Source: a virus. Taken from it: a stretch of DNA of 40,556 nucleotides. Below the pieces are notes generated by a model, which saw only the letters and a list, made by a program, of their open reading frames with translations, did not search any database and was not told where the DNA came from. The DNA lies in IMG/VR virus record IMGVR_UViG_3300042904_000068, positions 1 through 40,556 of that record; one strand, 5' to 3'. The translations under genes were made by a program, and so were the position numbers. This document shows positions 10,168-20,335 of this stretch, one piece after another; the stretch's first letter is position 1, and each line of letters begins with the position of its first letter.

Positions 10168-10196
10168 ATATTAGGCGTGCCTACCTTCTCTGTCAA
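10168..10196 (-). promoter_or_regulatory. pL: PL: early leftward promoter
   Basis: On the minus strand TTGACA (10196-10191, a perfect -35) and TAATAT (10173-10168, a five-of-six -10) are separated by exactly 17 bp. Transcription should begin near 10161, giving a ~32-nt leader before the first gene. Two repressor operators overlap or abut it: one covers the spacer and the edge of the -10, the other sits directly upstream of the -35. Confidence 0.9.
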
Positions 10197-10208
10197 TAGG
10201 CATCCCTA
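10172..10208. promoter_or_regulatory. OL operators (two sites)
   Basis: TAGGCGTGCCTA at 10172-10183 and TAGGCATCCCTA at 10197-10208, centre-to-centre 25 bp, each differ by one base from the palindrome TAGGCATGCCTA. The second is identical to a site in the cI-cro region. A bare half-site TAGGC also occurs at 10234-10238. Placement across PL means CI and/or Cro can shut off the leftward operon. Confidence 0.85.
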
Positions 10209-10283: not shown

Positions 10284-10589
10284 TTACTTCACGTGTCGCG
10301 CAATAAAGAACACTGCAGCGCTCAACAGGGTGCCGAAGGTGAGTGTCACCCCGATGACCTTCCAGGTCTGCTCATTTAATGCCTTGTGCAGCTCGGCGCG
10401 TAGATCCGACACGTCGCTCTTAGTAGCCATGGTCGCCTCGATCCGCGCGAGCCGCTCCCGCGCCGCGGTGGCGAAGTCTTCGAGGGCTTTGACGCGAGCG
10501 TCCATCTGGTCATTATCTGGGGGCTGTGGCCCACGAGGCAACCGGTTGTCGCGCCGAAGGAGCTCGTAAACGTTGCCCTCGTCAGCCAT
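10284..10589 (-). CDS. Coiled-coil protein with a C-terminal membrane anchor (101 aa)
   Basis: A heptad-like stretch (MDARVKALEDFATAARERLA, then RIEATMATKSDVSDLRAELHK) is followed by one transmembrane helix (WKVIGVTLTFGTLLSAAVFF) and a short basic cytoplasmic-type tail. The layout resembles XhlA/DUF1640-like small phage membrane proteins. The start ATG 10589 overlaps the upstream gene by 8 bp. It is the last gene of the cI operon, so it should be expressed in the lysogen. Confidence 0.75.
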   Translation of the reverse strand: MADEGNVYELLRRDNRLPRGPQPPDNDQMDARVKALEDFATAARERLARIEATMATKSDVSDLRAELHKALNEQTWKVIGVTLTFGTLLSAAVFFIARHVK

Positions 10590-10818
10590 TGTGTCGCTCC
10601 AAGTCCTCTAGCAACGTCATCACCAGTTGCATCGATCTGTCGTTGTCTTGGCCGAGTGGCGTGGTGGCCAAGTTCTTCATCCGCTGCAGGATCCGCTCCC
10701 CGAGCCGCGGATCGGTCTCATTCAGCGCAAGCACGGTCTGCCATACGAGAAGAAAAGCGGCATGCGAGACCGCGGTGTCGGCAGGCTGCTTCGGAGGTGG
10801 AGGGTCAAGGAGCCCCAT
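10582..10818 (-). CDS. Small helical protein in the cI operon (78 aa)
   Basis: Starts at ATG 10818; a much longer in-frame extension is a shadow of the HNH gene. The sequence is a short proline-rich head (GLLDPPPPKQPAD) followed by helices (HAAFLLVWQTVLALNETDPR, then RSMQLVMTLLEDLERH). No membrane segment or motif is seen. It overlaps both neighbours, consistent with coupled translation. Confidence 0.65.
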   Translation of the reverse strand: MGLLDPPPPKQPADTAVSHAAFLLVWQTVLALNETDPRLGERILQRMKNLATTPLGQDNDRSMQLVMTLLEDLERHNG

Positions 10819-11104
10819 GGGAGGCCTTTCGTGATCTGGCACATTCGCGCACATCCACCAGCGTCTTGAAGCGGTGGTCCTCTTTGCTGATCCACTGCAT
10901 GTTCGTGCGGTGGTCGGCGCCACCGGCGCACAGCGGCTGCACGTGGTCAACCTCCCAGCCTGGGCACGCGCCGCGTCGCTGGCCGGTAGTGGGGCAGGGC
11001 TCGCCCCGGATGAAGGCAAGGCGCTCCGCCGCAGAGCGCGGTGTCGCACCGGCCTCGGCCGCAGCGAGCAAAAGGAGTAGTGCAACTATTCCGTGAGGCC
11101 CCAT
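10805..11104 (-). CDS. Signal-peptide-bearing HNH nuclease (99 aa)
   Basis: Residues 1-20 form a signal peptide (GIVALLLLLAAAEAGA, likely cut after AGA). The mature part holds a compact HNH motif: DHVQPL supplies the first His, then HRTNMQW the Asn, and DHRFKT the last His, with Cys residues around it (CPTTGQ, GACPGWE, LCAGG, REC) that could bind zinc or form disulfides in the periplasm. Periplasmic export of a nuclease is unusual for a phage. Being in the repressor operon, it would be made by the lysogen and could cut DNA entering through the periplasm. ATG 11104 overlaps the lipoprotein gene by 19 bp. Confidence 0.8.
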   Translation of the reverse strand: MGPHGIVALLLLLAAAEAGATPRSAAERLAFIRGEPCPTTGQRRGACPGWEVDHVQPLCAGGADHRTNMQWISKEDHRFKTLVDVRECARSRKASHGAP

Positions 11105-11319
11105 ATCCTGCCGTTCGCCCCGCAGTTCCGTTCAAGGCCCGCCATCGAGTCATCAGCGTCGTAGCGCTTCGACCGGTAACCGTCTACAACAGCTTGCACA
11201 TAGGCGCGGCAGTTCACCGGTAACCCAGTCTCTTTCCCATAGATGGGTTTTGCATTCGGGTCTCCGTTGCATGCCACCAGCAGCAGGCAGAGGGCTGTCG
11301 TCAGCGGAGCTCTCACCAC
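11086..11319 (-). CDS. Small lipoprotein (77 aa)
   Basis: A GTG start at 11319 with AAGG upstream gives an N-terminus of basic residue, hydrophobic core and lipobox LLVAC-NGD, so Cys17 should be lipidated. Asp at +3 rather than +2 would favour outer-membrane sorting under the E. coli rule. The mature 61 residues contain two further Cys (VNCRAYVQ and LERNCGANG) that may form a disulfide, and a YDADDSMAGLE stretch. No family is recognised. It lies between the two-TM protein and the exported HNH nuclease. Confidence 0.75.
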   Translation of the reverse strand: MVRAPLTTALCLLLVACNGDPNAKPIYGKETGLPVNCRAYVQAVVDGYRSKRYDADDSMAGLERNCGANGRIWGLTE

Positions 11320-11352
11320 GGCATTGCCTTCGCGAACCGATTCATCGCCTTC

Positions 11353-11520
11353 CTACGGCTGATCGGACTTGAGCCACGTCGCCACGCGGCCGACGGCGTA
11401 CAGGATCGCGCCAAGCACCGCAATTCCAGTGCCCACGTGGTCGCCGGTGCCCGCGCGGATGATCACGCCCAGCAGCAGTACCAGGACGCCGACCACCTGG
11501 ACGATCTTCCAGGTCTTCAC
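11353..11520 (-). CDS. Two-TM small membrane protein (55 aa)
   Basis: GTG at 11520 overlaps the stop of the lipoprotein gene upstream (GTGA). The protein is almost entirely two hydrophobic helices (WKIVQVVGVLVLLLGVII and GTGIAVLGAILYAVGRVATW) joined by a short polar turn, with a basic start and KSDQP end. It resembles small inner-membrane proteins found next to lysogeny genes. Holin function is unlikely given its place in the repressor operon. Confidence 0.7.
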   Translation of the reverse strand: MKTWKIVQVVGVLVLLLGVIIRAGTGDHVGTGIAVLGAILYAVGRVATWLKSDQP

Positions 11521-12056
11521 GGCGTGATGGTCACTTCCACGGTCCGGCCGCCGCTCACCCTTGCGCGGCCGAGAAGGTACCCGCCCTGCTCGGTGTTGTA
11601 CCGCCCCGCGCTCCACACGACTCGCGTGATCAGAAAGAACTCGCCGTCCGCCAGCTCGGCGAAGCGGAAGAAGCCTTGTGCGTTGCAGGTGGTCTGCTTT
11701 GTATGCTCCGCGTACCCTGGCGGATCCGGGTTGAACTTCCGCCCTTGGTTCGTGCGCGCAAGACCGCCGCCCCCGTAGATTGCCGCCACCCGCTCCTTGG
11801 AGTATGCGGTGGCCGGAATGAGCAGCACGGGGTTTCCCGCGCAGGTGACGACACCGCCGCCCTGCTGCCGAATAAGCGCACTGCCGGTGATCGTGTTCGG
11901 ACCCGGCTTCATCAATGCCGCGGTTTCTGCGGCGTCGAATGGGGCGTGGATCTCTGTCACCTGCGGCGCGGGCGCCGCACACCCTGCGAGCATTGCCACA
12001 CTGGCAAATACTGCCAACAGCTTCGTCTTCAACCCATCCCTCACAGGTACCCCCAT
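11517..12056 (-). CDS. Lipoprotein with a carboxypeptidase-regulatory-like domain (179 aa)
   Basis: ATG 12056 overlaps the cI stop (TAATG), so it is translated directly after the repressor. Residues about 10-29 are a lipoprotein signal (LLAVFASVAMLAGC with lipobox LAGC-AA). The mature part (ITGSALIRQQGGGVVTCAGN, LIPATAYSKERVAA, and QGFFRFAELADGEFFLITRV) matches the pattern of carboxypeptidase-regulatory-like beta-sandwich domains. As the gene after cI it is probably the most strongly expressed envelope protein of the lysogen. Surface alteration or phage exclusion is an inference. Confidence 0.75.
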   Translation of the reverse strand: MGVPVRDGLKTKLLAVFASVAMLAGCAAPAPQVTEIHAPFDAAETAALMKPGPNTITGSALIRQQGGGVVTCAGNPVLLIPATAYSKERVAAIYGGGGLARTNQGRKFNPDPPGYAEHTKQTTCNAQGFFRFAELADGEFFLITRVVWSAGRYNTEQGGYLLGRARVSGGRTVEVTITP

Positions 12057-12757
12057 TAGAGTTTTTTTCCGTTCCACGCCCAGATCACGCGCCCCAGGAT
12101 GTGCACCGGCTCAGAACCATCCAGCAGCTGCACGGTCTTGACCTTGGGGTTGTCGCTGCTGATCTCGTGCCGCCCGTCAAACCTCTCCGTGACACGTTTG
12201 ACGAAAATCCGATTGTTTGCCTCTAGAACGTACACGCCGTCAATGTTCGCGTCCACGATCCCGCCGTCCACCAAAAGGATGTCGCCGTCGTTGAAGGTGC
12301 CCTCCATGGAGTCGCCGTAGCCATGGATGAACCGGAGGTTCTCCAGCGCGGTCGGCTTCAGCGTCTTGAGGATCCATTCCGGGGAGAGGGTCAGGCGGCC
12401 GACCACGACGTCATCGTGCTGCTCGGATCCCGGCCCCATTGAGGCGCTCGTTGCCAGCACGGGGACGCTGACCTTTTCAAAGCCAGGAAGGTACGGGGTC
12501 TCGACAGTCGCGAGCGCGGTCTCCGCTGACTCACCCGGTGCCAGGTGCTTTGGGCCGATCCCCGTCGCCAGCCACTTCGGATGCACCTCGAAGAAGCTCG
12601 CCGCGTTCAGCAGGTTGTCCGCCTCGAGCGTCTTCGTTCTCCCGCTGACCCAATCCGACACCGATGGCGCCTTGACGCCGCAGGCCTGGGCAAGCCGACG
12701 CTGCCATCCGCGGCCCTTGTCTTCCCCCAGCTCCTTCAAGCGATCCGCCAAGCTCAT
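12056..12757 (-). CDS. cI: CI-type prophage repressor (HTH + S24 peptidase)
   Basis: The 233-aa protein starts at ATG 12757; a longer frame would read through the operators. An N-terminal helix-turn-helix (RRLAQACGVKAPSVSDWVSG, about residues 20-40) precedes an S24/LexA-type domain with Ser150 in GDSMEGT and Lys187 in FVKRV, the Ser-Lys dyad for RecA-stimulated self-cleavage. The usual Ala-Gly or Cys-Gly cleavage dipeptide is not evident in the linker, so inducibility is uncertain. The operator at 12759-12770 abuts the start codon, and the predicted PRM start point is at or next to the ATG. Confidence 0.92.
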   Translation of the reverse strand: MSLADRLKELGEDKGRGWQRRLAQACGVKAPSVSDWVSGRTKTLEADNLLNAASFFEVHPKWLATGIGPKHLAPGESAETALATVETPYLPGFEKVSVPVLATSASMGPGSEQHDDVVVGRLTLSPEWILKTLKPTALENLRFIHGYGDSMEGTFNDGDILLVDGGIVDANIDGVYVLEANNRIFVKRVTERFDGRHEISSDNPKVKTVQLLDGSEPVHILGRVIWAWNGKKL

Positions 12758-12758
12758 G

Positions 12759-12819
12759 TAGGCAATCCTATCGAGACATTGATAGGCATCCCTATTGACA
12801 GATTCATAAGGCATGCCTA
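12759..12819. promoter_or_regulatory. OR operators (three sites) between cI and cro
   Basis: TAGGCAATCCTA (12759-12770), TAGGCATCCCTA (12783-12794) and AAGGCATGCCTA (12808-12819, with a perfect AGGCATGCCT core) are spaced 24 and 25 bp apart. They share the palindromic consensus TAGGCATGCCTA with the OL pair 2.6 kb away. The first overlaps the cI-proximal promoter, the middle one abuts the PR -35, and the last covers the PR spacer and -10 edge. This is the classic three-operator arrangement of lambdoid switches. Confidence 0.9.
12765..12793 (-). promoter_or_regulatory. Possible PRM promoter for cI
   Basis: On the minus strand TAGGAT (12770-12765) could be a -10. The hexamer 17 bp upstream (AGGGAT, 12793-12788) is a poor -35 that lies inside the middle operator, as expected for a promoter needing activation by repressor bound there. 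Transcription would start near 12758, i.e. at the cI ATG, giving a leaderless message as for lambda cI from PRM. Confidence 0.5.
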
Positions 12820-12823
12820 ACAT
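12795..12823 (+). promoter_or_regulatory. pR: PR: early rightward promoter
   Basis: TTGACA (12795-12800) and TAACAT (12818-12823) are separated by exactly 17 bp. Transcription should start around 12829-12831, right at the cro ATG (12832), so little or no 5' leader is available. Operators at 12783-12794 and 12808-12819 flank and overlap it. Confidence 0.9.
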
Positions 12824-12831
12824 GACTGCCT

Positions 12832-13110
12832 ATGGACATCCAGCACGCCCAACTCATTCAGCGGCTCGGCGGCGTCAGCGCCGTTGCTGCCCGTCTCGGC
12901 ATCAAGCCTCCCTCCGTCTCCGGGTGGATCGAAGACGGCCGAAACGGCATCCCGAAGGGCCGGCTGATCGAACTTGGGGCAGTGATCGAGCGCGAGCTGG
13001 GTATTGCCCGCTGGACGCTGTTCCCCACCGACTGGCACCAGATCTGGCCCGAGCTGATCTCCGCCAAGGGCGCACCGGCACTGCCGCAGCCCGAGCGGAA
13101 GGCGGCCTGA
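12832..13110 (+). CDS. cro: Cro-like repressor
   Basis: A 92-aa protein, divergent from cI, with an N-terminal helix-turn-helix of the YdaS/Cro type (LIQRLGGVSAVAARLGIK, PPSVSGWIEDG, then IPKGRLIELGAVIERELGIA). The start is the first in-frame ATG and lies 8 bp past the PR -10 box, so the message should be leaderless; no Shine-Dalgarno could exist. Another ATG at 12822 is out of frame. Cro would bind the TAGGCATGCCTA operators to lower cI and early transcription during lytic growth. Confidence 0.85.
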   Translation: MDIQHAQLIQRLGGVSAVAARLGIKPPSVSGWIEDGRNGIPKGRLIELGAVIERELGIARWTLFPTDWHQIWPELISAKGAPALPQPERKAA

Positions 13111-19848: not shown

Positions 19849-20003
19849 CCGAAGACGACCGCGCCCAGCTCGCCCGCATCGAGCGGAAGCTCGACACCCT
19901 GATCGCCGCGCTGGCTTCCGACGAGGAAGACCAGCCCGAACTGGAAGACCTGGAGGGCCGGCAGTTCGGGGGCGAGCGGGACGGAACGCAGAGCTTGGAC
20001 TGA
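19845..20003 (+). CDS. Small acidic coiled-coil protein (52 aa)
   Basis: ATG 19845 overlaps the previous stop (ATGA) and its stop overlaps the next ATG (TGATG). The sequence (RAQLARIERKLDTLIAALAS, then an acidic DEEDQPELEDLEG) is a short coiled coil plus acidic tail. Function unknown. Confidence 0.65.
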   Translation: MTEDDRAQLARIERKLDTLIAALASDEEDQPELEDLEGRQFGGERDGTQSLD

Positions 20004-20335
20004 TGGGCCTGCGCACGCTACCCGCCAGGCTGGCCACGGTCGACACCCGCAAGGTGAGGACGCTGGAGACGAAGGCAGGGGCCACGCCGATGGAGCGAGG
20101 CCGAGCATGGATGGAGAAGCGGGAGCGGGTGGCAGCAGCCCACGGCTACCGATGCGCCAAGTGCGGGAAGGTCTGGGTCGCAGGCCGGGACCACATCGAC
20201 CACATCGTCCCGCGCGAGCAGGGCGGCAGCAACGACGAGAGCAACCTGCAGCCGCTGTGCAATGAGCCGTGCCATGCCGAGAAGACGGCGGCCGAGGCGG
20301 CGGCGCGAGCGGGGAGGGGCGGGGGAAAAGTCTGA
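20003..20335 (+). CDS. HNH endonuclease of the packaging module
   Basis: The 110-aa protein has a compact zinc-HNH motif: CAKCGKVWVAGRDHIDHIVP, REQGGSNDESNLQPLCN and CHAEKTAAE, with paired CxxC and the His-Asn-His set. HNH nucleases directly upstream of the terminase small subunit are a known part of HK97-like packaging modules and in HK97 help the terminase cut DNA at cos. ATG 20003 shares a base with the previous stop. The 100 bp between this gene and terS would be a natural place for cos. Confidence 0.88.
   Translation: MGLRTLPARLATVDTRKVRTLETKAGATPMERGRAWMEKRERVAAAHGYRCAKCGKVWVAGRDHIDHIVPREQGGSNDESNLQPLCNEPCHAEKTAAEAAARAGRGGGKV

Follow-up and report, generated by a model that had tools for sequence, protein, structure and literature searches.

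The genes behind the repressor

The window, by which we mean the whole stretch of DNA analysed here (40,556 bp; IMG/VR virus record IMGVR_UViG_3300042904_000068), comes from a temperate phage. It encodes an integrase (Phage_integrase, E 1e-11), Cro-like and CII-like (Phage_CP76) regulators, an ERF recombinase, a terminase and a glycosyl-hydrolase endolysin. For the Cro-like gene (12832-13110, plus strand), the Pfam family YdaS_toxin (E 2e-8) outscores P22_Cro. The cI repressor matches Peptidase_S24 (E 2.5e-14) and the transcriptional repressors of PHROG 4 (E 9e-41). On the minus strand, 3' of cI, six short and mostly overlapping genes were found at positions 10284-12056, followed by one terminator. 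The features of the locus are:

12759..12823, plus strand: region with a pR-like promoter at 12795-12823 and three operator-like palindromes at 12759, 12783 and 12808
12056..12757, minus strand: cI-type repressor with HTH and S24 peptidase domains, which opens the lysogeny operon; gene calling and the positions of the operators led to the refined start
11517..12056, minus strand: LP1, lipoprotein (lipobox LAGC; PHROG 14789; PA1324-like beta-sandwich)
11353..11520, minus strand: TM2, 55 aa, two TM segments, GTG start; homologues in loci L005 and L018
11086..11319, minus strand: LP2, small lipoprotein (lipobox LLVAC); homologues directly before HNH in loci L015 and L111
10805..11104, minus strand: predicted exported HNH nuclease (~20-aa signal peptide and ~79-aa beta-beta-alpha-metal domain; D53, H54, N68, H77, K80)
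10582..10818, minus strand: small helical protein that matches no family; L005 and L018 have weakly similar genes at this place
10284..10589, minus strand: coiled-coil protein with C-terminal TM (PHROG 3556/6324); same-order homologues in L005 and L018
10264-10246, minus strand: terminator-like stem and T run in the sequence, the putative intrinsic terminator of the operon
10168..10208, minus strand: pL-like promoter TTGACA-17-TAATAT and, at 10172 and 10197, a pair of operator-like palindromes

The cI stop and the LP1 start overlap by 1 nt (TAATG), and overlaps of 4, 19, 14 and 8 nt join LP1 to TM2, LP2 to the HNH gene, the HNH gene to the helical protein and the helical to the coiled-coil protein, respectively. 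The sole junction with a gap (33 nt) is that between TM2 and LP2. Between these two genes is a ten-codon mini-ORF (MNRFAKAMPW, 11313-11345, minus strand) that has a strong ribosome site; its stop overlaps the GTG start region of LP2, and LP2 may be translationally coupled to it or have a different start.

The palindrome TAGGCATGCCTA (up to two mismatches) has five copies in the window, compared with 0.5 expected, at the leftward promoter (10172 and 10197) and in the cI-cro gap (12759, 12783 and 12808). Since these operator-like palindromes are confined to its two ends, the module sits between pL and cI, in the place of rexAB in lambda. The three sites in the cI-cro gap would fall inside the extra stretch of a cI gene starting at 12823, which makes the start at 12757 (233 aa) the likelier one. 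Inside the operon, we found just one weak promoter-like match (9/12). Barring an internal promoter, the module would thus be read from the cI promoter. A preliminary description of this DNA had placed six genes directly behind cI, with overlapping starts and stops and a single terminator, and had taken them to be co-transcribed with the repressor. The frames are all present and all junctions but one overlap as described; judging by gene order, the module can be co-transcribed with cI.

The HNH protein and its neighbours

Against the Pfam HNH family (PF01844), the HNH protein of the window scored 17.5 bits (E 0.0045; gathering cut-off 21.4), and against the HNH family PHROG 333 it gave an E-value of 5e-8. 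Judged by these profile scores, it is a divergent family member. Its AF2 model (pLDDT 92) shows a helical signal peptide followed by a beta-beta-alpha-metal domain, with strands at residues 50-54 and 69-73 and a helix at 74-96. Structural neighbours of the model (Foldseek/VIA) were the Cas8f HNH domain, the Gme HNH nickase 4h9d and McrA, and colicin DNases are also among the closest relatives of the domain. The beta-hairpin and helix, the D/H base, the N and the third metal ligand that characterize the HNH superfamily were all found in the window protein.

Profile-guided scans yielded homologues at no fewer than 142 loci, which gave 130 non-redundant sequences at 90%; the named hosts were mostly Comamonadaceae, with other Burkholderiales. 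In the alignment, D53 is present in 125 sequences, H54 in all 126 aligned, N68 in 128 of 130 and K80 in 129 of 130. The third metal position varies: 59 sequences have H77/T81, 61 have a small residue at 77 together with D81, and seven have N77/G81. Because the swaps at 77 and 81 are coordinated and the two positions lie one helical turn apart, the metal site appears to be maintained by ligand exchange. One close relative (L018, 5951-6151) has lost the N-terminal half of the catalytic domain by a deletion and a frameshift, with its flanking genes intact.

Four cysteines are conserved in the family (positions 37, 47, 59 and 88), and the mature part contains exactly four in 108 of 121 homologues; in several of them C59 is moved by one residue, not lost. 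In an exported protein, four conserved cysteines suggest two disulfides, which would suit the periplasm. Going by conservation, such disulfides are probably formed. The family thus has its fold and catalytic residues in common with other beta-beta-alpha-metal nucleases (Cas8f-HNH, 4h9d, McrA and colicin E9) but differs from them in its signal peptide, its four conserved cysteines and the absence of zinc CxxC pairs.

Localization was called by simple hydrophobicity rules. The window protein begins with the predicted signal peptide MGPHGIVALLLLLAAAEAGA, after which the mature part starts with TPRS. By the same rule-based test, 115 of the 122 full-length homologues have an export-type h-region, and every one of these 115 has an AxA-like site, so that both hallmarks of Sec export are kept across the family. 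A K or R is present in the n-region of 99 of the 115; the signal peptide of the window protein has none.

LP1 (...MLAGC) and LP2 (...LLVAC) carry lipoboxes, TM2 has two hydrophobic segments and the coiled-coil protein has a C-terminal TM segment. LP1 belongs to PHROG 14789 (E 3e-39), and its profile matches 3qec (E 2e-20) and 1xpn (E 8e-20), with a Foldseek match to 3qec at E 2e-11. Its closest solved relative is therefore PA1324 of P. aeruginosa (PDB 3qec, 1xpn), a pilin/SdrB-like beta-sandwich whose annotation stops at putative carbohydrate binding. With both a lipobox and this beta-sandwich, LP1 is by profile and by fold a clear member of the PA1324-like lipoproteins. In Pseudomonas phage Fyn8, LP1 alone follows the repressor directly, and several further loci likewise have it behind a repressor. 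Lipoproteins of PHROG 14789 with the PA1324 fold, annotated as hypothetical, lie directly or closely behind phage repressors in Fyn8 (L156, 3785-4986), L022-L026 and L028; they are a candidate exclusion lipoprotein family of P. aeruginosa phages. TM2 has homologues with 64-84% identity in L005 and L018. No family was matched by LP2, TM2 or the helical protein, and the matches of the coiled-coil protein were confined to the two PHROGs listed above, which have function-less annotations.

The HNH protein had been introduced in the preliminary description as carrying a signal peptide, and such a signal is found in the window copy as well as, in export-type form, in nearly all full-length homologues. 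The label 'carboxypeptidase-regulatory-like' given to LP1 was roughly right in view of its PA1324 relative. Envelope targeting of the module had been claimed for four of the six proteins; the targeting is borne out but the count is five, the helical protein being the one with no clear signal.

Linkage of the exported HNH gene to repressors

With a repressor profile seeded from the window and our own gene caller, on both of which the count depends, 54 of the 130 non-redundant HNH genes were found in one operon behind a CI-type repressor. The HNH gene follows the repressor directly in seven of these operons, with one gene between them in 28, two in 14 and three or four in five. The gap between the repressor and the next gene is mostly -29 to +50 nt. 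The other 76 homologues lie outside a recognized repressor operon; in 14 unlinked cases, the contig ends within 1.5 kb.

The linked repressors are unrelated to one another to the extent that they form 27 clusters at 40% identity, and the tree of the HNH proteins requires at least 31 changes of the linkage state. These numbers argue for repeated association and not for one inherited cassette. As a control, we used the cytosolic terminase-type HNH of the window (20003-20335). Among its 23 loci, none had the gene in a repressor operon (one had a repressor 3-4 kb away), and none of the 22 proteins called was exported. The difference in repressor linkage (54/130 versus 0/23) is significant (Fisher p 2e-5). 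The exported HNH in a lysogeny operon, first noted for the window alone, thus recurs in many prophages.

In the Mu-like phages L140, L049, L055 and L070, the exported HNH gene is located after gemA and/or mor-type genes, just before the lysis genes, and its start overlaps a lipoprotein or exported gene. A few copies are found in late regions or belong to larger phages (L128, L151 and MW202512), and two are on plasmids. In view of these exceptions, repressor linkage is a strong preference and not a rule. Only one match to the family was found among 50,697 isolated-phage records, a near-absence that makes the family easy to miss.

Among the genes between repressor and HNH, 52 of 73 (71%) have an envelope signal (signal peptide, lipobox or TM), compared with 182 of 1219 (15%) genes of like size from other parts of these loci (Fisher p ~1e-24, with genes treated as independent). 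The identity of these genes varies widely, the gene immediately 5' of HNH belonging to 41 families across 47 operons. Several partner proteins (L092, L031 and L131) carry a zinc-ribbon motif, MALIAC..C...KA..CPHCG, at the N-terminus, with a TM segment after it. The preliminary description had assumed that the gene set is kept as a block. This does not hold: no other locus was found with all six genes, and the order TM2, HNH, helical protein, coiled-coil protein, sought with TM2 and coiled-coil profiles, occurred only in L005 and L018 among the loci inspected gene by gene, with HNH broken in L018. The pair of LP2 and HNH recurs in L015 and L111. We therefore reject a conserved six-gene block; what is conserved is the pattern of a repressor, then variable envelope genes, then the exported HNH. 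In the prophages with the nearest cI genes that have no HNH gene, envelope genes again follow cI (L192, L194, L195, L202 and L203). The repressor-adjacent slot is thus a place for envelope proteins, and the exported HNH is the enzyme that recurs in it.

Possible function and relation to known systems

We propose that the module is an envelope exclusion cassette expressed in the lysogen, in which a periplasmic HNH DNase cuts the DNA of other phages at entry; whether this is so we regard as an even call. We infer that the DNase would be made in the lysogen together with CI, from the cI promoter, and that it would be exported to the periplasm by the Sec pathway and fold there with its conserved cysteines, probably as disulfides. 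Foreign phage DNA crossing the periplasm or stalled in it would then be nicked or cut before it could enter the cytoplasm. The DNA of host and prophage would be spared, as it is never in the periplasm. Since the compartment alone would protect the cell's own DNA, neither an immunity protein nor a recognition sequence would be needed, and in line with this, the module has no evident immunity gene. The neighbouring lipoproteins and membrane proteins could be exchangeable exclusion factors in their own right, or could help by keeping the nuclease close to where DNA enters; with partner genes this variable, cooperation with HNH is no more than a possibility. The chief doubt about exclusion at entry is a physical one: much phage DNA may cross the periplasm within a tail tube or channel and be shielded.

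An anti-phage role of the module is a reasonable reading of these findings. More tentatively, and somewhat short of probable in our estimate, the module may represent an undescribed, widespread prophage defence that combines a soluble periplasmic DNase with exchangeable envelope proteins and tells self from non-self by compartment alone. If true, this would be the simplest compartment-based immunity, consisting of one exported 10-kDa enzyme without a sensor or an immunity protein. The genes directly behind beta-proteobacterial prophage repressors would then hold a wealth of envelope exclusion proteins, most of them unannotated.

Exclusion might instead be the work of the lipoproteins and TM proteins, by a block of receptors or injection, with HNH as an unrelated passenger or selfish gene in a safe slot. 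Known exclusion factors are indeed mostly lipoproteins and membrane proteins, and both LP1 and the envelope genes after cI described above also occur without HNH. This explanation is nonetheless unlikely: HNH is the recurring member of these operons, in some of them with nothing between it and the repressor, its catalytic site is conserved throughout, and unlike homing HNHs it has a signal peptide and no intein, intron or homing context.

We give less weight again to the idea that the exported HNH keeps free DNA (natural transformation) or plasmids from being taken up and so guards the prophage against replacement by recombination. Transforming DNA is naked in the periplasm and would suit a DNase better than tail-delivered DNA, and for Campylobacter jejuni prophages, resistance to DNA transformation is recorded as an effect (PMC3995785). 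The plasmid-borne copies of HNH also fit. Left unexplained are the variable envelope neighbours, which resemble known exclusion factors, and the presence of HNH in several phage types, Mu-like phages included.

Least probable of the three is lysogenic conversion, in which an envelope or secreted DNase would degrade extracellular DNA for the host, as a nutrient, in biofilms or against predators. Small Sec-exported DNases are known prophage cargo in streptococci, and export is general in the HNH family. However, a Sec signal is all that we see, with no outer-membrane export system, and the placement behind the repressor and the membrane-anchored neighbours point to the cell's own envelope.

Two further candidates can be set aside: a bacteriocin-like toxin is unlikely, as receptor domain, translocation domain and immunity gene are all absent, and a homing or terminase-type HNH was rejected because the terminase-type control was in no case exported or part of a repressor operon.

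The six proteins of the module matched no defence model of PADLOC-DB 2.0, and the small proteins of the window matched no known defence family of PADLOC, NCBIfam or Pfam at their cut-offs. Of 57 HNH homologues, 20 weakly matched the type IV restriction (McrA-like) HNH model of PADLOC-DB 2.0 (best E 8e-5); we attribute the weak McrA-type and IscB matches of some homologues to the shared HNH domain only. A 2024 review of exclusion does not mention nucleases, and our literature search, outside which most subscription journals lay, found no description of an exported prophage HNH or of exclusion by a periplasmic nuclease. Nor did any curated family or defence model searched describe a cI-linked exported HNH; given the coverage of the literature search, an earlier description is possible. 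These results agree with the earlier impression that the layout is unlike described superinfection-exclusion systems.

By analogy, RexABpp, Ltp and SNIPE may serve as precedents for exclusion at the entry stage. SNIPE is a membrane-bound nuclease that cuts phage DNA during injection (PMC13190303). As proposed for the HNH protein, the nuclease is placed at the envelope, and location instead of sequence separates self from foreign DNA. However, SNIPE resides in the inner membrane and has its DUF4041 and GIY-YIG domains in the cytoplasm, whereas the window HNH is predicted to be a soluble Sec-exported 79-aa domain that acts outside the inner membrane, encoded by a prophage lysogeny gene; Pfam and PADLOC scans found no TM segment, DUF4041 or GIY-YIG in it.

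Ltp of TP-J34, a lipoprotein of the lysogeny module, blocks DNA injection (PMC3952083). Ltp and related lipoprotein exclusion factors resemble the module in this origin but are Gram-positive, involve no nuclease and are unrelated in sequence. In Pseudomonas phage Fc02, small genes co-transcribed with the repressor have exclusion activity (PMC9936078).

In position, the closest likeness is to RexAB of lambda and to RexABpp, which lies behind the CI-like repressor of P. putida prophage P1 and gives phage defence (PMC12894663). Like these, the module forms an operon behind CI that ends before pL, is bracketed by operators and promoters and would be expressed in the lysogen. The sequences are not similar. 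RexA, a DNA-binding sensor, is cytoplasmic and RexB is a membrane channel, and searches of Pfam, PHROGs and PADLOC found neither family in the module. What we propose as new is a periplasmic nuclease as an effector of prophage superinfection exclusion in the rexAB position.
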